IMG/VR virus record: IMGVR_UViG_3300022937_000169 | Span: 1 to 21,791 of that record | DNA length: 21,791 nucleotides | Reading direction: 5' to 3' (one strand) | From: a virus | Position numbers and translations under genes: made by a program | Part shown: piece by piece, positions 1,474 to 11,936 of the stretch | Layout of the letters: each line of letters opens with the position of its first letter | Position numbering within the stretch: position 1 is the stretch's first letter | Notes under the pieces: generated by a model | Seen by the model: the letters and a program-made list of their open reading frames with translations, nothing else | Told to the model about the DNA's origin: nothing | The model's database searches: none

Positions 1474-2715
1474 ATGTTAAACTTTTCAGGCTTTCTTGCC
1501 GAAGATAAAGGTGGGAAGAATCTACACCTAGAACATATCGAAGATGAAATTCTAAATTTCGGAATTGATGGCGGCCGTGCTTCCATCAATTTTGTTCGTT
1601 CTCTTAGAGATATGTTAGCAGGTGCATCTCGTTCATCTGTAAATATGACTGTCAAGTGGGATGGAGCTCCAGCAATCTTTGCTGGTATCGACCCAGAAGA
1701 TGGTAAGTTCTTTGTTGCAAAGAAATCAGTTTTCAACGTAAATCCAAAACTATACAAATCTTCTTCAGAAGTTGACGCAGACGTTTCTGGTGCATTGAAC
1801 TCTAAGTTCAAAATTGCACTTGCAGAGTTTTCTAAGTTGGGCATTAAAGGTGTTCTTCAAGGAGACTTGATGTTCACTGACGATGTTGATACCACAACAA
1901 TTGATGGTAAATCATTTTATACATTTCAACCAAACACAATCGTATATGCAGTTGATGTAAACTCAGACTTGGGTAAACAAATCAAGAATGCAAAGATTGG
2001 TGTAGTGTGGCACACCACATATTCTGGAAATGCACTACAAGATATGAAAGCATCATTTGGTGCAAACATCAGTGGATTAAATAAAACATCTACAGTTTGG
2101 ATGGATGATGCCACTTATAAAGATGTATCTGGTAAAGCTACAATGACTGCCGCAGAAACCGAAAAGGTTACTGCATCACTATCTTCTGCTGGTTCTACAT
2201 TCAGAACAATTAACTCTGCACTACTTACAAAGTTCCTTACACTACAAAATGGATTCACTGGTAATCTTGCTGGTGCATCTCTAAAAACTTACAACAATAG
2301 TAAGGTAAGACAAGGACAAAAGATTACTAATGCAAAGGCTCATGCCACTGGTTATCTGAAGTGGGTTGAAGATGCATTTCAAAAACAAATTGATAAACTC
2401 AAGACACCAAAAAATAAAGAGGCACTTGAGGTAAAGAAAAAAGAAACAATCAGAGAACTAAAGAAACACACTACTAATCTTGCAAATATTATCACATTTC
2501 AGAATCACATTGTTGATGCAAAGATGGGTATCGTAAGTAAACTAAATACTGTTAAGAGCATTGGAACTTTTATTAAAACTTCTAATGGATTTAAAGTTGT
2601 TAATCCAGAAGGATATGTTGCTATTGATAGGGTTTCTGGAAATGCAGTCAAATTAGTAGATAGAATGGAATTTAGTTTTAATAACTTTACTGCGATTAAA
2701 AGTTGGGATAAGTAG
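1474..2715 (+). CDS. Probable virion-associated protein with ligase-like nucleotidyltransferase motifs
   Basis: A 413-residue protein that I cannot name from family memory with certainty. Its first ten residues (MLNFSGFLAE) resemble the capsid-targeting leader of T4 internal proteins, with LAE at residues 8-10. The body has motifs in the order seen in covalent nucleotidyltransferases (DNA/RNA ligases, capping enzymes): KWDG at 61-64 (motif I, KxDG), GVLQGDLMF at 126-134 (motif III-like, with Asp for Glu), PEGYVAI at 378-384 (motif IV-like) and VKLVDR at 392-397 (motif V-like). The spacing between the third and fourth motifs is much longer than usual and would need an insertion, which fits the Lys-rich helical stretch at 270-360. 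The ATG has no good Shine-Dalgarno, but a late promoter lies just upstream and the next ATG directly follows the stop. The function is inferred only. Confidence 0.75.
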   Translation: MLNFSGFLAEDKGGKNLHLEHIEDEILNFGIDGGRASINFVRSLRDMLAGASRSSVNMTVKWDGAPAIFAGIDPEDGKFFVAKKSVFNVNPKLYKSSSEVDADVSGALNSKFKIALAEFSKLGIKGVLQGDLMFTDDVDTTTIDGKSFYTFQPNTIVYAVDVNSDLGKQIKNAKIGVVWHTTYSGNALQDMKASFGANISGLNKTSTVWMDDATYKDVSGKATMTAAETEKVTASLSSAGSTFRTINSALLTKFLTLQNGFTGNLAGASLKTYNNSKVRQGQKITNAKAHATGYLKWVEDAFQKQIDKLKTPKNKEALEVKKKETIRELKKHTTNLANIITFQNHIVDAKMGIVSKLNTVKSIGTFIKTSNGFKVVNPEGYVAIDRVSGNAVKLVDRMEFSFNNFTAIKSWDK

Positions 2716-4845
2716 ATGAAGAAGTTTTCAGAAATAAGAGAGGCTCGTGGTGACACTTGTGTATTTACCTTTGGTAGATTCAATCCACCAACGACAGGAC
2801 ATGAAAAACTATTAGACGCTGTTGCGACACAGGCAAAGAAGAACCCTGGCGCACCTTACTATGTGTTTGCTTCTCATTCTGAAAACGCAAAGAAAGACCC
2901 ATTACCATATGCAAAGAAAGTTGCATATATGAAAAAGATGTTCCCAAAACATTCACGGAACATTGTTGTAGATAAAGCAAGAAATGTGTTTGAGATTGCA
3001 GTCTCACTACACAACAAAGGACACAAATCAATCGTAATGGTTGTTGGTTCAGATAGAGTTGCAGAGTTCGATTCTCTATTGAACAAGTATAATGGTGTTG
3101 AAGCAAGACATGGATATTATGGTTTTGACAACATCGAAGTAGTCTCTGCTGGTGAGCGTGACCCAGATGCAGAAGGTGTTACTGGAATGTCTGCATCTAA
3201 GATGAGAGCAGCTGCTTCTACAAATGATTTTGACCAATTCAAACTTGGACTTCCAAAAGGTTTTAATCAAGGAATGTCACTATTTAAAGATGTTCGTAAG
3301 TTTATGGGCATTCGTGAATCATTCAACGGTTTAAACTACGTTATGACTGAAGAAGATGTTATTCGTGATATGTATGTTCGTGGAGAAGTTTTAAACATTG
3401 GTGAAGAAGTTACAGATACATATACTGGTGTAACTGGTAAAATTATTCGTAGAGGCACTAACTATCTAACCTTTGCAGAGGAAGATGGAACAACCCATAA
3501 GAAGTGGTTGTATGAAATTCAACTTGCAGAAGATTGTTGGCCTGGCTTTAAACAAGTTGGAATGAAGGATAAGAACGGAAAACAAGTTCCTAATTGTGTT
3601 CCAGTTGATGAGAAACAAGACAAAGATATTAAAGACAAGAAGGGTACTCAGCCTGCTAAGTATTTTGCAAAAGATGCTGAGGGTGATGAGATGGCAAAGT
3701 CTACTAAAGACAAAAGAGATGCACATTTCAGAAAACAGGCCGCAAAGGATGACGATGATCCTAATGCATATAAACCTGCCCCTGGCGATGCAACTGCAAA
3801 GACTAAACCATCAAAGTATACAAACAAGATGAAGAAGTTGTTCCCAGATTTATATAAAGAGAGTGCAACAAAGTCATTACAGAAAAAGGCAGATGCTTCT
3901 GGTATTTCACTAGGCATTCTGAAGAAGGTTTTTGATAGAGGTGTTGCAGCATGGAAGGGTGGACATCGCCCAGGCACAACTGCTGTTCAATGGGGTCATG
4001 CAAGAGTAAACTCATTTATTTCTGGCGGTAAGACAAGAACTACTGCCGATGCAGACTTGTGGAAACAACACAAGGGCAAGTCTGAAGATGTGGAAGAGGC
4101 ATTTAAAAAAGACAAGAAACTTTCAAATCTAAAAGTTGCAACAGGCAAGAGTGCTGTGTTGGCAAAAGACAGACTAAAAAATATGAATAAAACCCCAAAG
4201 ACGAGAGTTGCAGCTGAAACTGATATCGAAGAAGATCCTCGTGAAATTGGTACAGATGCATATAGAGAAGTGAGACAACAAATGACGCCAGGACAGGAAG
4301 TAAAGAAGTTCTCGTTCAAGGAACATCTGAACTGTGGAACAACAGATTGTTGTAATGAATGTGAGACTTCAAGTCTAATTGAGTCTAACGTATATCGTGT
4401 AGGGTCTGAAAAGTATTTTGAGTTTTTCCAAGAGAAGAGAGATGCCTATAATATTGGTGTCTACAATCCAGTAGGTTTTGATAAAGAACTGATGGAAGGT
4501 GATCTTGGAAAGTATGATATGTATCAAGGGGAACACGTTCCACTGGACTGCCCTATGATGGTTGAAGAAAAAGATGTAGAACTAAACAAACCAAAAGTTG
4601 GTGGGCCAAAGAAGTACTATGTGTACGTCAAAGATCCATCAACAGGTAATGTCAAAAAAGTCACATTCGGCGATACAACTGGACTGAAAGTCAAGTTGAA
4701 TGACAAGGAAGCAAGAAAGAGTTTTGCTGCTCGTCACGATTGTGAAAATCAAAAGGACAAAACCAAGGCTGGATATTGGAGTTGTAATCTTCCAAGGTAT
4801 GCCAAACAACTTGGTTTGAGTGGTGGTGGCAATTTCTTCTGGTAA
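2716..4845 (+). CDS. Multidomain virion-type protein with N-terminal NMNAT-like nucleotidyltransferase domain
   Basis: A 709-residue multidomain protein. The N-terminus MKKFSEIREA matches the pattern of T4 internal-protein leaders (compare MKTYQEFIAEA of T4 IPI) and contains an IRE-A prohead-protease-like site. Residues 15-195 form an HIGH-superfamily adenylyl/cytidylyltransferase domain: FTFGRFNPPTTGHEKL with TTGH in place of HxGH, and MSASKMR near 158-164 for the ISSSxxR motif. A second region (205-300) has CWPGFKQVGMKDKNGKQVPNC. Residues about 385-455 (GHRPGTTAVQWGHARVNSF) look like DUF5824, and the C-terminus (625-709, ending GGGNFFW) like DUF5872; both names are from memory. Further protease-like sites at IRE-S (199-202), VEE-A (459-462) and LIE-S (554-557) fall between domains. 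The start directly abuts the preceding stop. NMN adenylyltransferase activity is plausible but unproven. Confidence 0.85.
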   Translation: MKKFSEIREARGDTCVFTFGRFNPPTTGHEKLLDAVATQAKKNPGAPYYVFASHSENAKKDPLPYAKKVAYMKKMFPKHSRNIVVDKARNVFEIAVSLHNKGHKSIVMVVGSDRVAEFDSLLNKYNGVEARHGYYGFDNIEVVSAGERDPDAEGVTGMSASKMRAAASTNDFDQFKLGLPKGFNQGMSLFKDVRKFMGIRESFNGLNYVMTEEDVIRDMYVRGEVLNIGEEVTDTYTGVTGKIIRRGTNYLTFAEEDGTTHKKWLYEIQLAEDCWPGFKQVGMKDKNGKQVPNCVPVDEKQDKDIKDKKGTQPAKYFAKDAEGDEMAKSTKDKRDAHFRKQAAKDDDDPNAYKPAPGDATAKTKPSKYTNKMKKLFPDLYKESATKSLQKKADASGISLGILKKVFDRGVAAWKGGHRPGTTAVQWGHARVNSFISGGKTRTTADADLWKQHKGKSEDVEEAFKKDKKLSNLKVATGKSAVLAKDRLKNMNKTPKTRVAAETDIEEDPREIGTDAYREVRQQMTPGQEVKKFSFKEHLNCGTTDCCNECETSSLIESNVYRVGSEKYFEFFQEKRDAYNIGVYNPVGFDKELMEGDLGKYDMYQGEHVPLDCPMMVEEKDVELNKPKVGGPKKYYVYVKDPSTGNVKKVTFGDTTGLKVKLNDKEARKSFAARHDCENQKDKTKAGYWSCNLPRYAKQLGLSGGGNFFW

Positions 4846-4873
4846 ACCATACACCCAATCTTATGATAATGAT

Positions 4874-5113
4874 ATGATTATCAGAAGGTTTGATGAGGAA
4901 GTTGACAGTAGTGAACTGGTATGGCATAGAGATAAACATACTAGAGAAGTCACTGTTTTAGAAGGAACTGGTTGGCAGTTACAACTTGATAACAAGATAC
5001 CAGTGGAACTAGAACGAGGTAAAATATACGTTATTCCAGAGATGGAGTATCACAGATTAATAAAAGGAACAGGGAAACTTGTTGTAAAAATATGGGAAGA
5101 AAAAAATGACTAG
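4874..5113 (+). CDS. Small cupin-like protein
   Basis: A 79-residue protein with the pattern of a minimal cupin (double-stranded beta-helix): HRDKHTREVTVLEGTGW, then LERGKIYVIPEMEYHRLIKG with a late His and alternating Gly turns, then a final strand LVVKIWE. The frame extends back to a GTG at 4820 inside the preceding gene, but that extension only re-reads the Gly-rich end of the upstream gene, so the ATG at 4874 is preferred; no strong Shine-Dalgarno decides it. Cupins of this size usually bind a small ligand or metal, or act as sugar-modifying or structural folds. The metal-binding His set is incomplete here, so enzymatic activity is uncertain. It overlaps the next start by eight bases, indicating coupling within the late unit. 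Confidence 0.75.
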   Translation: MIIRRFDEEVDSSELVWHRDKHTREVTVLEGTGWQLQLDNKIPVELERGKIYVIPEMEYHRLIKGTGKLVVKIWEEKND

Positions 5114-6704
5114 ATATAGCTCAACTATAACAGAGGCCCTGCAAGAGATTCGTGAGGGGTTCTCTTCAAAACAAATTAAAATGGCAATTGGTATTGCATC
5201 AGATAAAAGATATGCTGGTGGTAATATGACAGGTGCTGTTAATGCAATTGAAAAGATTAAAAAGGGATTGTCTGATCATCCACAGGTTGCAGCAGTTCTA
5301 AAAAGACAGAATGAAGATATTCAAGAAGATGGACATACAGATGTTGCGTCTGCGAAGAATCAAGTTAAGGTTGCCATGACTGCATTGCAGAAAATGGAAA
5401 TGGAACTTGGTAAACTGAATGATGAAGATTCACTACCCTCATGGTGGACAAATAAAGTTGCAATCGCAGTTGATAAAATTGATGGTATGGCAGATTACCT
5501 TGATACACAAGTAGAAGGTGTAGAACCTATTCAATGGCCTTCCCAACCACTAGAAGAAAGTGTGACGATTGATGAACTTAAAATGGATGATCCAAAACTG
5601 AACAGGGTTTTTGATAAACTAAAAAGAGGCGATACCGTTAAACTAAAAACTAGTTCCACAATCAGTAAAGGCACAGACTTTGTTGATTATGTTGTGAAAT
5701 CAAAAAACACGGTAAACAAGGGTAGAGTAGAAAAGGTTACTCTTGTTACTAAAGGTAATGAGAAGGCAGTCAAGAAGTTCCTATACAAGAGAGATGGTAA
5801 AGTAACATTCGCTATCGGTGATATGGGTGCATCTATTGATGATATCAAAGAAGCCGCACATGAACTTGCAGAGAAATTAAAAGTCTCTGATGGTTTGGGT
5901 GCATGGATTACAGATTTCCAAAAATCAGACGCACCACAGTTTGCTGGTAAATCTGACGAAGATAGACAGAAAATGGCAATCGCTGCATTCACAGATGCTG
6001 GTGGTAAACTAGATGAGATGGCATATAAGCCTGGTTCATTCAAAGATATTCGTCCACAAGAAAAGGCCGCAAAGGCATTGGACGCACTTATCAAATCTGG
6101 TGGACTAGACAAGAGTGATTTCCAAAAGGCAAGAGCAATGTATGTTCAGGCATCTGATATGCAGTCAAGAAAGAAACTTAAAGACTTTATCAGTAATCTA
6201 GATACAGAACCATTGGAAGCAATCTTGGATATTATTGGTAGAAATGATCCAGATACTTTCCAAAAAATGTATCCAAACTCAAAGCCTGGCGAGTATCTAT
6301 CTACAATTGCATACAAACATAGAAATGCAAAGAATGAAGAAACTGAACTGGACGAAAAAGCACCAAAGATGACATATGCTCTTGTTGGAACAGATATGAA
6401 AATCTATTCAATGGGCAGTGATGAGAGAGATTTGAGGTTGGATCGCAAAAGTCTTGAAAAGAGATTCAAAGATGTTGCACCACTAAAAATGGCAAGACTT
6501 AAAACTGCACAAAGTATTGGTGACAAAGTAGATAAGTCTCAACTCAAAGAAGAAGAAGAACCAAATAAACCAGATTCTGCCAAAGCGGTAGATCAAATGC
6601 GAGATGACAAGAAGAAAACTCGTATTGCACAGTTGCAGTTGCAAATCGCAAAGGCAAGTGAAATGATTAACAAACTAAACTCACAGGAGAAACCAGATGC
6701 CTAA
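5106..6704 (+). CDS. Long helical virion-type protein with capsid-leader-like N-terminus
   Basis: A 532-residue protein of unknown function. Its N-terminus, MTRYSSTITEALQEIREG, holds two back-to-back sites that fit the T4 prohead protease pattern: ITE-A at residues 8-11 and IRE-G at 15-18. Next comes a segment (SSKQIKMAIGIASDKRYAGG, 20-39) that I recall as recurring in marine phage proteins. Further matching tripeptides are LEE-S (149-152) and IKE-A (247-250). The protein is charged and predicted mostly helical, has no membrane segment, and ends in a Lys/Glu-rich coil followed by a leucine-spaced helix (IAQLQLQIAKASEMINKL). This fits an internal head protein or scaffold-like component. Its start overlaps the cupin-like gene and its end overlaps the next gene by eight bases. 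Confidence 0.75.
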   Translation: MTRYSSTITEALQEIREGFSSKQIKMAIGIASDKRYAGGNMTGAVNAIEKIKKGLSDHPQVAAVLKRQNEDIQEDGHTDVASAKNQVKVAMTALQKMEMELGKLNDEDSLPSWWTNKVAIAVDKIDGMADYLDTQVEGVEPIQWPSQPLEESVTIDELKMDDPKLNRVFDKLKRGDTVKLKTSSTISKGTDFVDYVVKSKNTVNKGRVEKVTLVTKGNEKAVKKFLYKRDGKVTFAIGDMGASIDDIKEAAHELAEKLKVSDGLGAWITDFQKSDAPQFAGKSDEDRQKMAIAAFTDAGGKLDEMAYKPGSFKDIRPQEKAAKALDALIKSGGLDKSDFQKARAMYVQASDMQSRKKLKDFISNLDTEPLEAILDIIGRNDPDTFQKMYPNSKPGEYLSTIAYKHRNAKNEETELDEKAPKMTYALVGTDMKIYSMGSDERDLRLDRKSLEKRFKDVAPLKMARLKTAQSIGDKVDKSQLKEEEEPNKPDSAKAVDQMRDDKKKTRIAQLQLQIAKASEMINKLNSQEKPDA

Positions 6705-7179
6705 GTATCTAAAAACCAAAGAAGGTAGTCTTGAAAGTGCAGTACTGGAGGCGGTATCTCCAGCACAACAGGCTGCAATCGCAATTTCTAAAAAAGAAAA
6801 GGGTGAGAAACCTAAAAATGAAGAAAAAGTAGAATGTCCTAAATGTAAAGGTGAAGGATGTGACCATTGTGATGGTAAAGGTTATCACACAACTGAAGAA
6901 CTTACTGCAAAGCAGAAGAAGATCGACATGAACAAGGATGGCAAAATTACTGGTGACGATCTTGCAAAACTAAGAGCAAAGGGCGCCAAGAAAGAAGAAG
7001 TGAAAGAAGAACTTTCCCTTGCAGAACTTGCCGCAAAACATATTGCTGATATGTGGAAAGAGGCATCTAAATCTCCTAAGAAGGAAGAAGAAGATCCTAA
7101 GAAAAAAGAATCCAAAACTACTATGACTGGCAAACCAATGTCTGGTGTCGAAATTAATCCAAAGTCAAAAGAGGACTAA
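6697..7179 (+). CDS. Small virion-type protein with DnaJ-like zinc finger and EF-hand-like loop
   Basis: A 160-residue protein with a good Shine-Dalgarno (AGGAG nine bases upstream). The N-terminal leader contains VLE-A at residues 16-19, matching the prohead-protease pattern. Residues 47-62 read CPKCKGEGCDHCDGKG, a compact version of the DnaJ zinc-binding repeat with four Cys (47, 50, 55, 58). Directly after lies DMNKDGKITGDD (77-88), which fits the 12-residue calcium loop of an EF-hand or dockerin (Asp, Asn, Asp, Gly, Ile and Asp at positions 1, 3, 5, 6, 8 and 12). The remainder is a Lys/Glu-rich helix with low complexity. Possible roles are metal-stabilised binding of DNA or of another head protein; no function is known to me. 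It overlaps the previous gene and is four bases from the next. Confidence 0.75.
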   Translation: MPKYLKTKEGSLESAVLEAVSPAQQAAIAISKKEKGEKPKNEEKVECPKCKGEGCDHCDGKGYHTTEELTAKQKKIDMNKDGKITGDDLAKLRAKGAKKEEVKEELSLAELAAKHIADMWKEASKSPKKEEEDPKKKESKTTMTGKPMSGVEINPKSKED

Positions 7180-7182
7180 TAC

Positions 7183-7695
7183 ATGAAACATCTTGTGGAA
7201 CTCACAAAAATAGAAGAAGCAGAGCTTCCACAGATTTACTGTGACATGGACATGGTATTATGTGATTTTATCGGCGGTTATCAGAAAATGACTGGCAAAG
7301 ATTTTGCCACTACTGATAAAGATGAACGCTGGGAAGAAATAAAGTCAAAGAAAGATTTCTGGGCAACACTTGATTGGATGCCTGGAGCTGAGAGAATGTG
7401 GAAACTAATTAATAAATATAATGCAAATATTTTATCTGCATACTCAAATAGAGATGCAAACAGTAGGCCAGGAAAGAAAAAGTGGTTATCACGATTTGCT
7501 AAACCTACTGGTAGAATTCATCTTGTTGTGAGAGCAGATAAACAGAAATATGCCACAACCAATGGTAAACCTAACATCTTGATTGATGATTATATCAAAA
7601 ATATCAAGGAGTGGGAAACCAAGGGTGGTATTGGGATTCATCATCTGAGTCCAACACAAACCATTGCTCAATTGAAGAGATATGGATTTAGATAA
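7183..7695 (+). CDS. HAD-family 5'-nucleotidase/phosphatase-like protein
   Basis: A 170-residue enzyme of the HAD superfamily, closest in pattern to 5'(3')-deoxyribonucleotidases, which remove phosphate from nucleoside monophosphates. Motif I is YCDMDMVLCDF with nucleophile Asp21 and acid/base Asp23; motif II Ser lies in NILSAYS (85 or 87); motif III Lys is probably in RADKQKY (120/122); motif IV is LIDDY with Asp135/136. The small cap (KMTGKDFATT...DFWATLDWMPGAE) matches the nucleotidase type. The N-terminal 12 residues, MKHLVELTKIEE followed by Ala, are extra to the fold and contain an IEE-A site like those of head-targeted T4 proteins. An AGGA lies upstream of the ATG. Activity is likely because the motifs are intact; the substrate is unknown. 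It may instead be a nucleotide-pool enzyme acting in the cytoplasm. Confidence 0.85.
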   Translation: MKHLVELTKIEEAELPQIYCDMDMVLCDFIGGYQKMTGKDFATTDKDERWEEIKSKKDFWATLDWMPGAERMWKLINKYNANILSAYSNRDANSRPGKKKWLSRFAKPTGRIHLVVRADKQKYATTNGKPNILIDDYIKNIKEWETKGGIGIHHLSPTQTIAQLKRYGFR

Positions 7696-7698
7696 ATA
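7691..7698 (+). promoter_or_regulatory. Possible late promoter variant (GATAAATA)
   Basis: One mismatch from the TATAAATA late octamer, overlapping the stop codon of the nucleotidase gene and 37 bases before the next ATG. The following genes are short, strong-SD, structural-type genes that would suit a late start point. Weak evidence on its own. Confidence 0.35.
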
Positions 7699-7700
7699 GA

Positions 7701-7715
7701 AGAGTAACATACTCT
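7701..7715 (+). other. Short hairpin in 5' leader of structural gene
   Basis: AGAGTA and TACTCT form a perfect six-base stem with a three-base loop, located between the nucleotidase stop and the Shine-Dalgarno AAGGAG of the next gene. There is no T-tract, so it is not an intrinsic terminator. It could protect an mRNA 5' end or mark a processing site. Confidence 0.4.
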
Positions 7716-7734
7716 ATAACTAAGGAGAAAGACT

Positions 7735-8316
7735 ATGGCTCTATGGGGCGTTTCAACAACAGATGAGTCCAAACCAAAGTGGCTCACTGCTGAACAAAAG
7801 AAGACCGTTTTCGCAACGGACAGAGGTTGGGTTCAACTGAATGGCAAAGGACTTGAAGAAGTTATTTGTGCAATCGGTGGACTTGCCGGTACAAGTGCTA
7901 TTACTGGTATTGGTGCTGCTACAATCACTTCAATGGACTTTGTAACTACATCGTTCAGTGAGGCTGATGGTGGTAACATTGATATTCGTGTAATTTTTAA
8001 CGAGAGAGTAACAGTAGATACTTCTGGTGGTACACCAACTATTACTGTAACAAACGATCAGGCTGGTTCTGGAACTGATGCAACATTCACTGCTGCATAT
8101 CAGGCTGGTTCATCAACCAACCGTTTGACATTCAGAAAAACATATGCTGCTGCCAATGGCGGTGTTGCAGAGGATGACGTACTTTCAGTTGCTGCACAAA
8201 ACTTGGCACTGAACTCTGGTACAATTGTTGACCAAGCAGACGGTACAACTGCTGTAGCAGTTGCAATTAGTGCTGACGCAGCTGCCGCTGCTGGCACACT
8301 TACAGCATCTGCATAA
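7735..8316 (+). CDS. Virion structural protein with bacterial Ig-like domain
   Basis: A 193-residue protein with strong AAGGAG upstream. The N-terminal 60 residues (MALWGVSTTDESKPKWLTAE...TDRGWV) form a head that I recall from many marine T4-like phage structural proteins beginning MSLWG or MALWG. Residues about 65-185 read like a bacterial Ig-like fold of the SwmB/Big type: IDIRVIFNERVTVDTSGGTP, TITVTND, a repeated NRLTFRKTY edge strand, and LSVAAQNLALNSGTIVDQADG. Such domains occur on capsid, neck or tail proteins and on large bacterial adhesins, where they bind weakly to sugars or cell surfaces. The Ala-rich C-terminus may be flexible. The likely role is surface decoration of the virion, possibly analogous to Hoc, but the exact location in the particle is unknown. 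Confidence 0.75.
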   Translation: MALWGVSTTDESKPKWLTAEQKKTVFATDRGWVQLNGKGLEEVICAIGGLAGTSAITGIGAATITSMDFVTTSFSEADGGNIDIRVIFNERVTVDTSGGTPTITVTNDQAGSGTDATFTAAYQAGSSTNRLTFRKTYAAANGGVAEDDVLSVAAQNLALNSGTIVDQADGTTAVAVAISADAAAAAGTLTASA

Positions 8317-8337
8317 GTAGTATTAACGGAGTAAATT

Positions 8338-8592
8338 ATGTCTAAGAATGAACGGACACTTAGTGTCGGTGATATTGAAAAAAAGAAAACGGAACTGGAA
8401 TCTGACTTGGAGAAAATCCAAAGTCAGATCCAGAACCTTGATAAAATGAGAGTGCAGTTAACAGCACAGGGTAATGCCATTAATGGTGCAATCCAACAAT
8501 GCAATTTGTTTCTGCAACAACTTGAGGCGAGTTCCGCCAGTAGCATCCCCTCGCAAGACGATAACCCAGCATTAAAAGCTGTGTTGAGTTGA
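8338..8592 (+). CDS. Small coiled-coil protein
   Basis: An 84-residue protein with an upstream GGAG. Residues 8-66 form a long amphipathic helix with heptad-spaced hydrophobics (IEKKKTELESDLEKIQSQIQ...), ending in a Ser-rich and Asp-rich tail. It sits between two structural-type genes, each with strong Shine-Dalgarno sequences, so a virion or assembly role (for example a trimeric or dimeric spacer or chaperone) is likely. No family name can be given. Confidence 0.75.
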   Translation: MSKNERTLSVGDIEKKKTELESDLEKIQSQIQNLDKMRVQLTAQGNAINGAIQQCNLFLQQLEASSASSIPSQDDNPALKAVLS

Positions 8593-8619
8593 GGGTTTTA
8601 ACAATTAGGAGAAATAAAA

Positions 8620-9066
8620 ATGGCTGATAAGAAAATTACAGCACTTACGGATTTGGGTAGTGCGATTGCATCTGAAGATTTACTTCATGTGATTGATGAT
8701 CCAAGTGGAAACCCAATTAACAAAAGAGTTAGCGTTGCTAATGTTTTTAATAACATTCCAACATATGTTGCACTTGACGGTACAGCACAAGTAATCACTA
8801 ACACTACTGATGCAGTCAATGTATCAACTTCAATTACACATCTCAATACCACAGGTGGAGCTCACGCTGGTGGACTTGCCGATGGTACTAATGGTCAAAT
8901 TAAAATCATTACAATGATTGCTGATGGTGGTGATTCTGTTATTACACCAACAAATCTTGCCAATGGTTCTACAATCACATTTAACGATGTGGGTGATACT
9001 GCAATGCTTATTTTCACAAATACCAATTGGGTTGTTGTATCAAACAATGGTTGCTCGATTGCATAA
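8620..9066 (+). CDS. Probable virion structural protein (beta-rich)
   Basis: A 148-residue protein preceded by TAGGAG. It starts MADKKITALTDLGSAIASED with LLHVIDDPSGNPINKRVSVANVF, a stretch seen at the N-termini of many phage fibre and decoration proteins, where it forms a short attachment segment. The remainder has repeated Thr/Asn/Gly-rich strands (TVTNTTDAV-like, GSTITFNDVGDTAMLIFTNTNW), as in beta-sandwich or fibre tip domains, ending NWVVVSNNGCSIA. No membrane segment or enzyme motif is seen. Its short length suggests a separate decoration or tip subunit rather than a full tail fibre. It is followed within ten bases by another gene with its own GGAG. Confidence 0.75.
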   Translation: MADKKITALTDLGSAIASEDLLHVIDDPSGNPINKRVSVANVFNNIPTYVALDGTAQVITNTTDAVNVSTSITHLNTTGGAHAGGLADGTNGQIKIITMIADGGDSVITPTNLANGSTITFNDVGDTAMLIFTNTNWVVVSNNGCSIA

Positions 9067-9076
9067 GGAGTAAATT

Positions 9077-9247
9077 ATGACAACTAGAATGGGCGCAAAT
9101 GGTATGCCAATGCCAGAGAAAAAAGAAGATAAAAAACCAGAAGCGCTTCAAGAGATTCTTGAAGTTAATCCTAATACAGTAGAAGAGGAAGAAGAACTTT
9201 CTTCTGATTGGGAAGCAGAAGAGGAAGAAACTGATGAAGAACTTTAG
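9077..9247 (+). CDS. Small acidic protein
   Basis: A 56-residue gene starting MTTRMGANGMPMPEKKEDK and ending in a Glu/Asp tail (EEEEELSSDWEAEEEETDEEL). AAGGAG lies eight bases before the ATG. The stop codon overlaps the next gene's first codons by 14 bases in a different frame. The strongly acidic tail resembles DNA-mimic or head-core peptides, but nothing identifies its function. I support it as a gene because of the ribosome site, the tight spacing and the in-frame reading with no gap on either side. Confidence 0.7.
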   Translation: MTTRMGANGMPMPEKKEDKKPEALQEILEVNPNTVEEEEELSSDWEAEEEETDEEL

Positions 9248-9644
9248 TAAATATATTACAGAAAAAGCAACTGATGCTGGTTATCCAGTAGACGGTTCTG
9301 ACTTCACCAACGACCTCGCCAAACCAGAAACAATCACAAGAATTAATGCATTCCTTGGTTCTATGGGTAAGATGGAATATCTTGTTCCAGAACACGCACT
9401 GAACAAGATGCAAGAGAAACTTGGTAGATTGGGTATCTCTTTTGAAATGCCAAGTTTGTCAGAGGATGGTGGCGAAATGTCTGTTCCTCTAACACAGTTT
9501 GGTGGAAGAACAGGAAAAGATGAAAATGGCGATGATATCAATGATGATGGTATCTCTCATAAAGTTGAAGGTGGACTATCTCTTAAAATTATGCACGAAA
9601 AGACAGCATCTGGAACACACTTTTTGATGGCCAAAATCGTTTAA
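9234..9644 (+). CDS. Virion-type protein with capsid-leader-like N-terminus
   Basis: A 136-residue protein beginning MKNFSKYITEKATDAG, close in pattern to the T4 internal-protein leader (M-K-x-F/Y-x-x-F/Y-I-x-E); the ITE is followed by Lys, not the favoured small residue. After the leader there is a Pro/Asp-rich segment, a helix (ALNKMQEKLGRLGISFEM) and an Asp/Gly-rich turn (GKDENGDDINDDG, 99-111) before two beta strands ending FLMAKIV. The Asp/Asn-rich loop could bind calcium, but it does not fit the 12-residue EF-hand exactly. The start lies inside the preceding acidic gene. The function is unknown; an internal head or decoration protein is my best guess from the leader. Confidence 0.7.
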   Translation: MKNFSKYITEKATDAGYPVDGSDFTNDLAKPETITRINAFLGSMGKMEYLVPEHALNKMQEKLGRLGISFEMPSLSEDGGEMSVPLTQFGGRTGKDENGDDINDDGISHKVEGGLSLKIMHEKTASGTHFLMAKIV

Positions 9645-9658
9645 TAACGTAGGGCAAT

Positions 9659-10021
9659 ATGTTTGAAAAATTAACGAATGATAATATCACAATGTTTGCT
9701 ATCAAGCATTATGATAATCCACAATGTGAAGGTGAAGCTGAGTTCCATGATGACATGAAACGCTTTAAGTATATAAAGCGTTTGTTGAGAAAGTATCAAG
9801 AGTCTGGTGAATTAAAAGAAAGACTTATACTGAATCATATGACTGTCATTTATAATGTTTTTGGAGTTGATGCTGGTTCTACATTACTATTATTTAAAAT
9901 TGAACCAGAGTTTTGGGGTATACTTAAAACATTTATGGTATTTTTAAATATGTTGCCAGAAGGTGAACTTTCAGAGATTGAAGTAAACGAAGAAATTAAA
10001 AAGGTATTAGAGAAACTATAA
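9659..10021 (+). CDS. Conserved T4-like phage protein of unknown function
   Basis: A 120-residue helical protein. The start has a modest GTAGGG upstream. The N-terminal half is charged and aromatic (ITMFAIKHYDNPQCEGEAEF, then KRFKYIKRLLRKY), the middle is hydrophobic (NHMTVIYNVFGVDAGSTLLLFKIEPEFWGILKTFMVF) and the end is acidic. I recall closely similar proteins in cyanophages and other marine T4-like phages, but no role is established that I can name. Its last A is the first base of the next ATG, so both are translationally coupled and probably act together. The hydrophobic middle is amphipathic rather than a clear membrane helix. Confidence 0.75.
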   Translation: MFEKLTNDNITMFAIKHYDNPQCEGEAEFHDDMKRFKYIKRLLRKYQESGELKERLILNHMTVIYNVFGVDAGSTLLLFKIEPEFWGILKTFMVFLNMLPEGELSEIEVNEEIKKVLEKL

Positions 10022-10635
10022 TGGGAAGAGCGATTGATTTATTTGTGACATACCGTTTCATCAGACTTTTAACGACTCCTTTTAAGGAAAGTGAAGCTTT
10101 CAAATTAGGTATCATAGATGAAGTTGGTAAAAGAACAGATAAGAAACTTACAACGTCACAAGAAAAGAATGCTTATACCGTTCTTCACAAACTTGTATAT
10201 AATATCAAAAAGATTTTTGAAAAAGTTCCAGGCCTTAGAACAAAGGTGGGAACTTATGCCGCTGCTCTATTTTTACTGAAAGATACTTTTAGAGAACATA
10301 TTGAAGATCCAAAGATGTTTGAAAAAGAATTTCTCAAATATCTAAAAGAAAACAATATAGAATTAGATGATTCAATTGTTGAAGAAGTAACTTTGGACAA
10401 TGGCAAACTTTCAAAAGGAATCTATGTTCTCACACAGGATGTTGTGACAACAGAAGAAGATGAAGATGAGATTAGTGCTGTAGAGGGTGATGAGGTTGAA
10501 GTCTTTGAGGATACTCCACCAACTGATACTATTCTTGGTGTTGATGTGTTCTCTGTAGTACATAAAAACACAAAGCAGAAGATATTTGTTTCTGCTGAAG
10601 ATATTAAAGAAGTAGATATAGGGGATCTATTATGA
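10021..10635 (+). CDS. Conserved T4-like phage protein, probable virion component
   Basis: A 204-residue protein whose ATG overlaps the previous stop. The N-terminal 95 residues (MGRAIDLFVTYRFIRLLTTP...KVGTYAAALFLLKDTF) are helical and basic-aromatic and are, from memory, well conserved in marine T4-like phages. After a hinge the C-terminal half has an acidic run (EEDEDEISAVEGDEVEVFED) and a beta-type ending (VDVFSVVHKNTKQKIFVSAEDIKEV). No enzymatic motif is visible. Its conserved pairing with the preceding gene suggests one complex. A virion or assembly role is inferred from the surroundings only. Confidence 0.75.
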   Translation: MGRAIDLFVTYRFIRLLTTPFKESEAFKLGIIDEVGKRTDKKLTTSQEKNAYTVLHKLVYNIKKIFEKVPGLRTKVGTYAAALFLLKDTFREHIEDPKMFEKEFLKYLKENNIELDDSIVEEVTLDNGKLSKGIYVLTQDVVTTEEDEDEISAVEGDEVEVFEDTPPTDTILGVDVFSVVHKNTKQKIFVSAEDIKEVDIGDLL

Positions 10636-11144
10636 GTCTAAAATTCGATGATATAATGAAAAGATTTTATTCTGACCCTAAATTGGGTATTCAAACAGAG
10701 GAAGTTCCTACTAACAATGCTAGTAGTGGTGCAGTCTCTATGCCGCCTGATGTTCAGATTGACAAAAAGAAAAAGAAAAATCCATATGATGGTAGAACTA
10801 AAGAAGCAAAACAGTTCTACAAACGTATGGCTGAACGCAAAGCAAAGAGAGAAGAAATGAAATCAAAACTCGCACAGAAAGTTCAAGAGAATACTCTAGA
10901 AAGATCATCACACCTTGCAGAAGATAATGTTGATGTTCTAAAAGATATTGTCAAAAACAAACAAAACAAAAATATCAAATTCAAAGATGGTAGTATGAAA
11001 GTAGACTTGTTTACTGCATCTGCTGTTACACAAGTTTTCGATATGGTTAATAAGTCTAACCAAGAAAAGATGAGAAAACTTATTAACGGTAAGAAGGCAG
11101 AGTTTATGAAGATTTCTGACTTTGCATTGTCAAAAGTAAAGTAA
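10632..11144 (+). CDS. Basic, helical phage protein of unknown function
   Basis: A 170-residue protein with a start overlapping the previous stop (ATGA). The N-terminus (MSLKFDDIMKRFYSDPKLG) is an amphipathic helix, followed by a flexible Ser/Asn segment and a very basic stretch (DKKKKKNPYDGRTKEAKQFYKRMAERKAKREEMKSKL). The end (SAVTQVFDMVNKSNQEKMRKLINGKK...) is also helical. The basic patch could contact DNA or an acidic head protein such as the neighbouring acidic products. No known fold is recognised. It belongs with the two preceding genes by overlap and spacing. Confidence 0.72.
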   Translation: MSLKFDDIMKRFYSDPKLGIQTEEVPTNNASSGAVSMPPDVQIDKKKKKNPYDGRTKEAKQFYKRMAERKAKREEMKSKLAQKVQENTLERSSHLAEDNVDVLKDIVKNKQNKNIKFKDGSMKVDLFTASAVTQVFDMVNKSNQEKMRKLINGKKAEFMKISDFALSKVK

Positions 11145-11145
11145 T

Positions 11146-11487
11146 ATGGCAACCCATGTAATCAAAAATACCACATCTAATTACACGGTAAAGGTAATGA
11201 ATGAGAATTCATATACACTTACTTTGTCTGATACTACATTAGATGGGGTTACTCCAACTGGATTGGTTATTAATGCTGCATTTTGGTCTGTATCATCTTC
11301 TGGCAACGAACATCTTGAGATAACCAGAAATAGTATTGAAGTTATGGATTTACATGGGAATGGATTCATGGATTTTACTGACCATGGCATGGTGTTATCA
11401 GAACAATCAACTCAATCAATTGTTATCGCACCAACAAACTCTGGGCATCACTATAGTCTTATATTGTCATTAGGGAAAGTAATCTAA
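11146..11487 (+). CDS. Probable beta-sandwich virion protein
   Basis: A 113-residue protein made almost entirely of Thr/Ser-rich beta strands: HVIKNTTSNYTVKVMNENSY, LTLSDTTLDG, VINAAFWSVSSSGNEHLEITR, then TQSIVIAPTNSGHHYSLILSL. This pattern fits a single compact beta-sandwich such as a decoration or baseplate/tail accessory subunit. It starts one base after the preceding stop and its last base is the first base of the next ATG. No signal peptide, membrane segment or enzyme motif is present. The family is not known to me by name. Confidence 0.72.
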   Translation: MATHVIKNTTSNYTVKVMNENSYTLTLSDTTLDGVTPTGLVINAAFWSVSSSGNEHLEITRNSIEVMDLHGNGFMDFTDHGMVLSEQSTQSIVIAPTNSGHHYSLILSLGKVI

Positions 11488-11936
11488 TGAAAACCTTTAA
11501 ACAGTTTGAACAGTCATACTCTGGTGTTCCCTTTGGAACATATCATCCTGTAGCAGACTTGAATGCTGCCGCTGGTGATGCACAGATTTCTAAAGCAGAT
11601 TTAGACAACGTAGAGAAGTACGCTGACAGACTATATAAAGCAGTAGGTATTGATGTTGAATTTACTCGACACTTCCTAGACAGAGTGAATGATGCGAGAA
11701 ACAAGAAACAGATTACTGTGGCTGAACTTATTAGATTGTTCAAACAGTCTTTTAAGAAACATGGTAAAAAGATTGCGGCACTTGGCCCAGATGCTGAAGC
11801 CGTTTTAAATGATATGCAGACAGATGTTAATATGCCGTTTGCATTAAAATGGGATGGAAAAGAATTAGACTTAATCGCAAAGACTGTAATGAGAAAACCA
11901 AACTTTGCAACATCTAATCAGAAACTATCTTTTTAA
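11487..11936 (+). CDS. Virion-type protein with MKTFKQF leader
   Basis: A 149-residue protein starting MKTFKQFEQSYSG. The first seven residues match the T4 internal-protein leader pattern (MKTYQEF), but there is no clear prohead-protease site after it (FEQ follows). The body has a helical Asp-rich part (YADRLYKAVGIDVEFTRHFLDRVNDARNKKQITVAELIRLFK) and a beta ending (DLIAKTVMRKPNFATSNQKLSF). The RHFLDRVNDAR...ITVAELI segment is often found in marine phage proteins of this kind, usually placed after a linker, and may be a separate domain of unknown function. Placed at the end of the structural block, just before the membrane/lysis block, it is the last gene of this set. Confidence 0.72.
   Translation: MKTFKQFEQSYSGVPFGTYHPVADLNAAAGDAQISKADLDNVEKYADRLYKAVGIDVEFTRHFLDRVNDARNKKQITVAELIRLFKQSFKKHGKKIAALGPDAEAVLNDMQTDVNMPFALKWDGKELDLIAKTVMRKPNFATSNQKLSF

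Follow-up and report, generated by a model that had tools for sequence, protein, structure and literature searches.

Within IMGVR_UViG_3300022937_000169, an IMG/VR virus fragment of 21,791 bases (hereafter the window, meaning this whole stretch of DNA), seven genes on the plus strand code for proteins that start with a similar short leader, or tag. We consider it very likely that six or all seven of these otherwise unrelated proteins bear a capsid targeting sequence of the type found on T4 internal proteins, are cut by a gp21-type protease and are carried and released with the DNA. The virus probably takes ready-made enzymes into the infected cell along with its DNA, and the window is best explained as part of a marine T4-like phage (Kyanoviridae) that carries a cluster of cargo genes. 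T4-like capsid targeting, already put forward in the initial annotation of this DNA, is supported by the match to residues mapped in T4, the match to capsid cleavage sites, a gp21-like protease in Melnitz and tagged homologues in virions. From these we infer targeting and cleavage in the window phage, ejection, and roles of the enzymes in the host.

Head genes are absent from the window. Among named phages, those closest to it are the Methylophilales phages Melnitz (Kyanoviridae, T4-like), with 79% identity across 41% of the window. Every leader protein of the window is present in Melnitz, where the leaders have diverged within the same pattern and two further leader genes occur (MQGFKTFLSEA and MKKFSELTSELIE). 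The Melnitz head module comprises portal, prohead protease, prohead core protein and major capsid protein; the protease is 38% identical to T4 gp21 and the capsid protein 38% identical to T4 gp23. Conservation was assessed in a sample of 80 IMG/VR relatives carrying DUF6267.

Leader sequences and their match to T4

All seven N-termini listed in the initial annotation were confirmed in the sequence at the genes named, six as full leaders and one, MKTFKQF, as a front half only. The full leaders have 9 to 18 residues, an aromatic residue (or Leu) at position 4, a usually fixed position 7 and a conserved [ILVM]xE end. Column counts were taken on distinct sequences, with 11 to 56 homologues per family. 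The DUF6267 protein starts with MLNFSGFLAE, then D (1474..1503), with a predicted cut after Glu10; F4 and E10 are invariant in 54 distinct homologues, position 7 is F, Y or H, position 8 is L or I, and position 9 takes seven residue types. The leader of the NMNAT-like protein, MKKFSEIRE, then A (2716..2742), is one position shorter, with a predicted cut after Glu9; F4, E9 and A10 are invariant in 56 distinct homologues, with I or L at 7 and a variable position 8. Essentially all of the 77 DUF6267 and 75 NMNAT genes with a readable start keep the leader. The protein of 532 amino acids (aa) starts with MTRYSSTITE, then A (5106..5135); Y4 and E10 are invariant in 25 homologues, with M or I at 8, and a second candidate site, IRE-G at codon 17, has E17 in 22 of 24 homologues. 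The MPKYL start of the 160-aa protein opens a leader of 18 residues, MPKYLKTKEGSLESAVLE, then A (6697..6750), in which Y4 is invariant (16/16) and E18 is kept in 15 of 16 homologues. The nucleotidase-like protein starts with MKHLVELTKIEE, then A (7183..7218; predicted cut after Glu12), with L or I at 4, I or V at 10 and an invariant E12 in 12 homologues, and the 136-aa protein with MKNFSKYITE, then K (9234..9263; predicted cut after Glu10), with K2, F4 and E10 invariant in 11 homologues. The half leader MKTFKQF of the 149-aa protein (11487..11507) has the targeting residues 4 and 7 and no [IL]xE nearby; its counterparts in relatives read MKTFLQF, MKTFKKF and MKTFKIF, and T4 IPI begins MKTFKEF. 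Several of the leader genes have a purine-rich sequence like a ribosome site directly upstream and, since the starts at 1474 and 2716 also have an in-frame stop immediately 5', the gene starts look sound.

Across families, position 4 is F or Y (L or I in the nucleotidase) and position 7 is F/Y/H, T or I/L, near-invariant among homologues. A cleavage-type end is present in six of the seven families, mostly as MxE in the 532-aa family and as VxE in the 160-aa family; the P1 Glu never changes in five families and is kept in 15/16 homologues of the sixth, with a hydrophobic residue at P3 and varied residues at P2. The cleavage sites proposed in the initial annotation were borne out to this extent, as was its remark that MKTFKQF has none. 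Outside the leaders, conserved [ILVMF]xE triplets number 14 in ~1,700 columns (<1%), and all six families have one at residues 9 to 18, for which our own arithmetic gives a chance of ~1e-6. In T4 IPIII, targeting works mainly via residues 4 and 7 and processing via 8 and 10, and gp21 cuts after [LI]xE (PMC9026906). In the alignments, the constrained positions of the leaders are the same as those mapped in T4 for targeting (4 and 7) and cleavage (8 and 10). The likeness to IPI suggested earlier holds for the type of leader; the sequence quoted for it, MKTYQEFIAEA, is the start of IPII and IPIII, whereas the start of IPI is MKTFKEFTSTTTPVSTITEA and its cleavage site falls at residue 19. Because IPI is this 19-residue form, the MPKYL leader and MKTFKQF resemble IPI rather than being poor matches.

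The ends of the leaders also resemble capsid cleavage sites. The site in the T4 capsid protein is SFLTE, then AE, and the matching capsid region reads FLSE then AAPT in Melnitz, LLTE then APT in phage S-CREM2 and SFLAE then APT in phage S-SCSM1; leaders such as MIKFSSFLTE (then D) and MKNFSSFLTE (then A) share their end letters with the capsid site. By analogy with T4, the marine phages would use these capsid sites. In two loci (L139:1016-1351 and L161), the residues after the leader are AAPTNSTGSGVDN-like and look like the beginning of the mature major capsid protein.

To follow the leader pattern over related genomes was a check proposed with the initial annotation, and its outcome was favorable. 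A strict T4-derived rule, M..[FY]..[FY][IL].E, was tested on every ATG opening a frame of at least 60 codons in 717 kb of relatives; 80 of 7,223 ATGs matched, all of them first codons of cluster genes, from five unrelated families. With a looser rule there were 189 matches, all on the coding strand, the sole clear false positives being two internal ATGs; this rule also caught genes inserted into the cluster in some relatives, coding for 504 aa (L013) and 97 aa (L036). In 37 loci (e.g., L065, L050 and L036) the DUF6267 and NMNAT genes flank a gene for a small and strongly basic protein (RRKMGLRMKKMAKSSAFKAKVARK) whose start is leader-like; this protein recalls the T4 internal proteins and is missing from the window. 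Outside the cluster, Melnitz has leader-like starts on a RimK-like ATP-grasp protein (MTQKFSQFITEE; L001:82-1131) and a P-loop kinase-like protein (MKTFAELQEG; L002:15855-16523), both possible cargo.

In IMG/VR, a degenerate DNA pattern (MK[ST]F..F[IL].EA type) matched at least 120 stretches and the reversed pattern none; a simpler DNA pattern was too narrow, giving no match in the window's own record. Among the matches listed, 84 leaders could be read in 80 loci, 79 of them opening frames of at least 60 residues; 78 of these loci hold genes like those of Melnitz, S-SCSM1 or S-CREM2, and at least 36 clusters of unrelated sequence follow the leader. Domains behind these leaders include CTP_transf_like, DUF6267, GNAT acetyltransferase, glucosaminidase and a DPBB wall enzyme, and some tagged proteins (L103 and L108) resemble ADP-ribosyltransferases, judged by eye only. 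Since the leader letters are set by the search pattern, the IMG/VR evidence consists only of the excess over the control and the diversity behind the leader; the invariant columns of the corresponding alignment (A5) follow from the pattern and were excluded from the evidence.

Virion proteomes and alternative explanations

Three Kyanoviridae with virion proteomes were compared over the whole genome: S-CREM2 (PMC10665884 Table 3), S-SZBM1 (PMC9146016 Table 1) and S-SCSM1 (GenBank "(virion protein)" labels; PMC9602691). For S-SCSM1 we counted 48 labeled virion proteins, the paper stating 45 (PMC9602691). S-CBWM1 is not one of the Kyanoviridae and was left out, and the part of the S-CREM1 record examined had no virion labels. 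Homologues of the NMNAT-like protein in the three phages reach E=3e-78, and all three have a leader and were found in virions purified on cesium chloride (CsCl): S-CREM2 gp154 (MKNFSSFLTE), S-SCSM1 ORF91 (MKSFLQFLKE) and S-SZBM1 gp140 (MRFRQFIIE). In S-SCSM1, ~90 additional residues stand between leader and enzyme domain, so the leader keeps its terminal place as the protein changes. S-CREM2 has six tagged proteins, i.e., the cytidylyltransferase, a kinase (MKRFDAFLTE), a SAM hydrolase (MKDFDSFLEE), gp136 (MQTFSMFFSE), gp13 (MKDLHSFLTE) and gp175, of which all but gp175 are in the virion (5/6 versus 52/219 overall, p=0.003). Pooled over the three phages, tagged proteins were in virions in 7 of 11 cases, versus 130 of 719 proteins overall (p=0.001). 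Another virion-associated protein of S-CREM2, the Cas9-like nuclease gp12 (L089:7704-10313), has RFASFMAE, then A, ~17 residues in, behind an in-frame CTG; gp12 may start at this CTG (annotated Leu17), with RFASFMAEAA directly after it, in which case its leader would resemble the one on S-SZBM1 gp140. Homologues lacking the leader, named in the initial annotation as evidence against targeting, were found for DUF6267 only, in distant phages: those of S-SZBM1, S-SCSM1 and S-CREM2 start at or after the equivalent of the leader end, and none was detected in virions.

Several points weigh against a packaged cargo set. The virion evidence comes from the proteomes of relatives, none from the window phage, and only the NMNAT family was matched to a tagged virion protein; the 160-aa protein has only a partial homologue in these phages, and S-CREM2, S-SZBM1 and S-SCSM1 lack homologues of the 532-aa, nucleotidase and 136-aa families. 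The pooled rule was loosened after the data had been seen, and the strict T4 rule gives 4/6 (p=0.011). Four of the 11 tagged proteins went undetected (S-SZBM1 gp191 and gp192, S-SCSM1 ORF30 and S-CREM2 gp175), three of them of 105 to 165 aa and one of 55 aa. Conversely, S-SCSM1 ORF90, 92, 93, 95 and 97 are cluster-equivalent virion proteins with no clear leader, in a block of which 7/9 proteins were detected in the virion (p=8e-5). A published experiment showing an N-terminus at the predicted Glu was not found for any marine relative, and the authors of the proteomes warn of co-purification (PMC9602691).

If the leaders act as in T4, residues 4 and 7 would dock each protein into the scaffold core during prohead assembly; a gp21-type protease would then cut after [ILVM]xE, freeing the mature enzyme in the head before DNA packaging, and the enzymes would stay with the DNA, exit with it at infection and act at once. 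The alternative that survives best, though we regard it as rather unlikely, is that some of the proteins, such as the one starting with MKTFKQF, are targeted to the head and left uncut. The 149-aa protein does lack an [IL]xE near its start, and in T4 an Asp at position 10 stops processing and not targeting (PMC9026906); against this, the Glu is kept essentially without exception in six families. It is a good deal less probable that the leader serves to dock the proteins onto a cytoplasmic assembly, such as a replication or nucleotide-metabolism complex, with the Glu as part of the docking motif and not a protease site. The cluster does lie between helicase and primase/ribonucleotide reductase genes, in a neighborhood of replication and nucleotide functions, which would fit, and an NMNAT and a nucleotidase suit metabolism. 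However, the adjoining replication enzymes carry no tag, cell-wall hydrolases are among the unrelated tagged proteins, the hydrophobic P3, variable P2 and Glu at P1 make up the pattern of the gp21 site in the capsid protein, and in three phages the tagged NMNAT homologues were detected in virions purified on CsCl.

The co-purification raised by the proteome authors leads to a further explanation, which we rate slightly lower still: the virion detections would be abundant proteins of the lysate and the similarity of the leaders would have another cause. Some detections amount to 1 to 3 peptides, but replication proteins are mostly undetected while tagged enzymes are detected and leaderless DUF6267 homologues are not, and conservation of the leader over many unrelated families would be left unexplained. 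Lastly, a nucleotide or translation-start constraint rather than protein function, for which similar first codons such as ATGAAA might speak, was rejected, since codons vary synonymously at the fixed Phe, Leu/Ile and Glu positions, which indicates selection on the protein, and hardly any other gene start in this DNA fits the rule. Capsid targeting followed by gp21-type cleavage is the reading that we retain.

Probable cargo proteins and genomic setting

The first cargo gene codes for the DUF6267 protein (1474..2715; 413 aa; Pfam DUF6267 E=2e-107), with a KWDG motif of the kind seen in ligases; VKWDG is present and conserved. The initial annotation took this protein to be ligase-like, which could not be confirmed: a profile search of PDB sequences gave no match to a ligase fold, and the AlphaFold model was poor (predicted local distance difference test score, pLDDT, 62), with no fold match from that model. 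Of the enzymes named there, two others are one NMNAT-like protein (Pfam and PHROG, with homologues in the virions of three phages) and one nucleotidase-like protein (PHROG 2643). Neither had a match to PDB sequences, so the assignment of their activity is by Pfam and PHROG only. The former is a modular NMNAT/cytidylyltransferase-like protein of 709 aa (2716..4845) with Pfam CTP_transf_like above the cut-off, DUF5824 and other modules (PHROG 3041/395, cytidyltransferase), and conserved FGRFNPPT.GH and SASKMR; with a domain bearing an (H/T)xGH-type motif, its sequence places it among the NMNAT/HIGH-type nucleotidylyltransferases. Its length varies from 542 to 861 aa among relatives, through gain and loss of modules. 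Those that vary are DUF5824, DCWPGFKQVG...NCVP and the C-terminal KKYYVYVKD...GGGNFFW (window 2716-4845; alignment A4). The virion protein S-CREM2 gp160 contains a comparable module, CWPGY...NNCV. The nucleotidase-like cargo (7183..7695; 170 aa) resembles 5'(3')-deoxyribonucleotidases (PHROG 2643 E=2e-29), with Pfam NT5C slightly under the cut-off. Both enzymes suggest that nucleotide or NAD pools of the host are acted on soon after infection begins.

The 532-aa modular protein (5106..6704) is kept in 34 loci and has a module in common with a Melnitz protein of 251 aa. This module, KQIKMAIGIASDKRYAGGN, lies at 5106-5300 in the window and in the neighboring 251-aa protein of Melnitz (L001:18520-19275), each time directly after [IL].EG. 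The 160-aa protein (6697..7179), described earlier as a zinc/EF-hand protein, has the CxxC pairs, and its EF-hand-like segment gave a match below threshold; it is partly similar to S-CREM2 gp111, a virion protein. The 136-aa cargo protein (9234..9644) is kept in 11 loci and has no Pfam or PHROG match, and the 149-aa protein (11487..11936; PHROG 23027 E=1e-23) is a probable cargo. The seven proteins reach up to 709 aa, with isoelectric points of 8.1 to 9.4 for six and 5.2 for one, and an ADP-ribosyltransferase was not recognized among them. Some long cargo may consist of polyproteins cut into modules by the same protease, as [IL]xE sites lie between some modules of the NMNAT-like protein. This remains an idea because internal [IL]xE sites are only weakly overrepresented in the NMNAT and 532-aa proteins (z ~2), similarly to some other Melnitz proteins.

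A small cupin-like gene inside the cluster (4820..5113, plus strand) carries no leader and has a weak cupin match (E=2e-4, under the Pfam cut-off). Another leaderless protein, starting with MALWG, is encoded at 7735-8316; proteins with MALWG or MSLYG starts in the corresponding position are virion proteins in S-SCSM1 (ORF95) and S-SZBM1 (gp136). The gene order is kept in Melnitz, running from helicase through the leader cluster, small virion-type genes and primase to B12-dependent ribonucleotide reductase and NrdB.

Known systems and a possible portable tag

The closest parallels are the T4 internal proteins IPI, IPII and IPIII, in which one leader of 10 to 19 residues, with aromatics at 4 and 7 and an [IL]xE site, precedes unrelated mature parts (PMC9026906). 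These proteins are small and basic, whereas the window cargo includes a 709-aa NMNAT-like protein, a nucleotidase-like protein and DUF6267 in an operon-like block between replication genes and, unlike T4, has a 9-residue version of the leader. In T4, gp21 also processes the Alt ADP-ribosyltransferase, an enzyme with catalytic activity that is delivered together with the DNA, although Alt is cut at its C-terminus too (PMC9026906). The virion NMNAT/cytidylyltransferases of S-SCSM1, S-SZBM1 and S-CREM2 are homologous and leader-bearing, sharing only the NMNAT domain and a short later stretch with the window protein. In the giant phages SPN3US and phiKZ, a gp21-type protease likewise trims many cargo proteins, the head ejection proteins, at a short motif whose last residue is Glu (PMC9026906); the cleavage motif of their propeptides is a distinct one, and these giant phages are remote relatives.

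That capsid targeting may let T4-like phages load various proteins has been proposed in a T4 review (PMC9026906). In the PMC literature (with subscription papers and supplements outside the search), "capsid targeting sequence" and "cyanophage" occurred together only in that review, and the term "capsid targeting" was not used in any of the papers listed for it together with cyanomyovirus, Kyanoviridae or pelagiphage. The portions of the main text covered of the S-SCSM1, S-SZBM1 and S-CREM2 proteome papers propose no targeting signal. The T4 mechanism is known, and the literature searched seems to hold no report of its extension to enzyme cargo in marine T4-like phages; what appears new here is a clustered, enzyme-rich and interchangeable cargo set with a T4-type tag.

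T4-like phages rank among the most abundant viruses in the ocean, and for the majority of their genes no role is known. We lean toward the view that in the marine members one portable head-address tag serves as a general delivery system, with dozens of unrelated proteins packaged and injected. If so, NMNAT-like, GNAT, glucosaminidase and RlpA-like wall enzymes, together with ADP-ribosyltransferases by sequence resemblance, are reasonable candidates for tagged cargo, and in S-CREM2 the SAM hydrolase, the kinase and the Cas9-like nuclease are plausibly to be added. A leader of this kind would explain why NMNAT-like enzymes recur among the virion proteins of cyanophages, a finding that the authors of those proteomes were unable to distinguish from contamination. 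Were it predictive of packaging, many "hypothetical" or "auxiliary metabolic" genes could be reclassified as coding for proteins delivered at infection, and the injected effectors of a phage would be readable from its genome via the leader.

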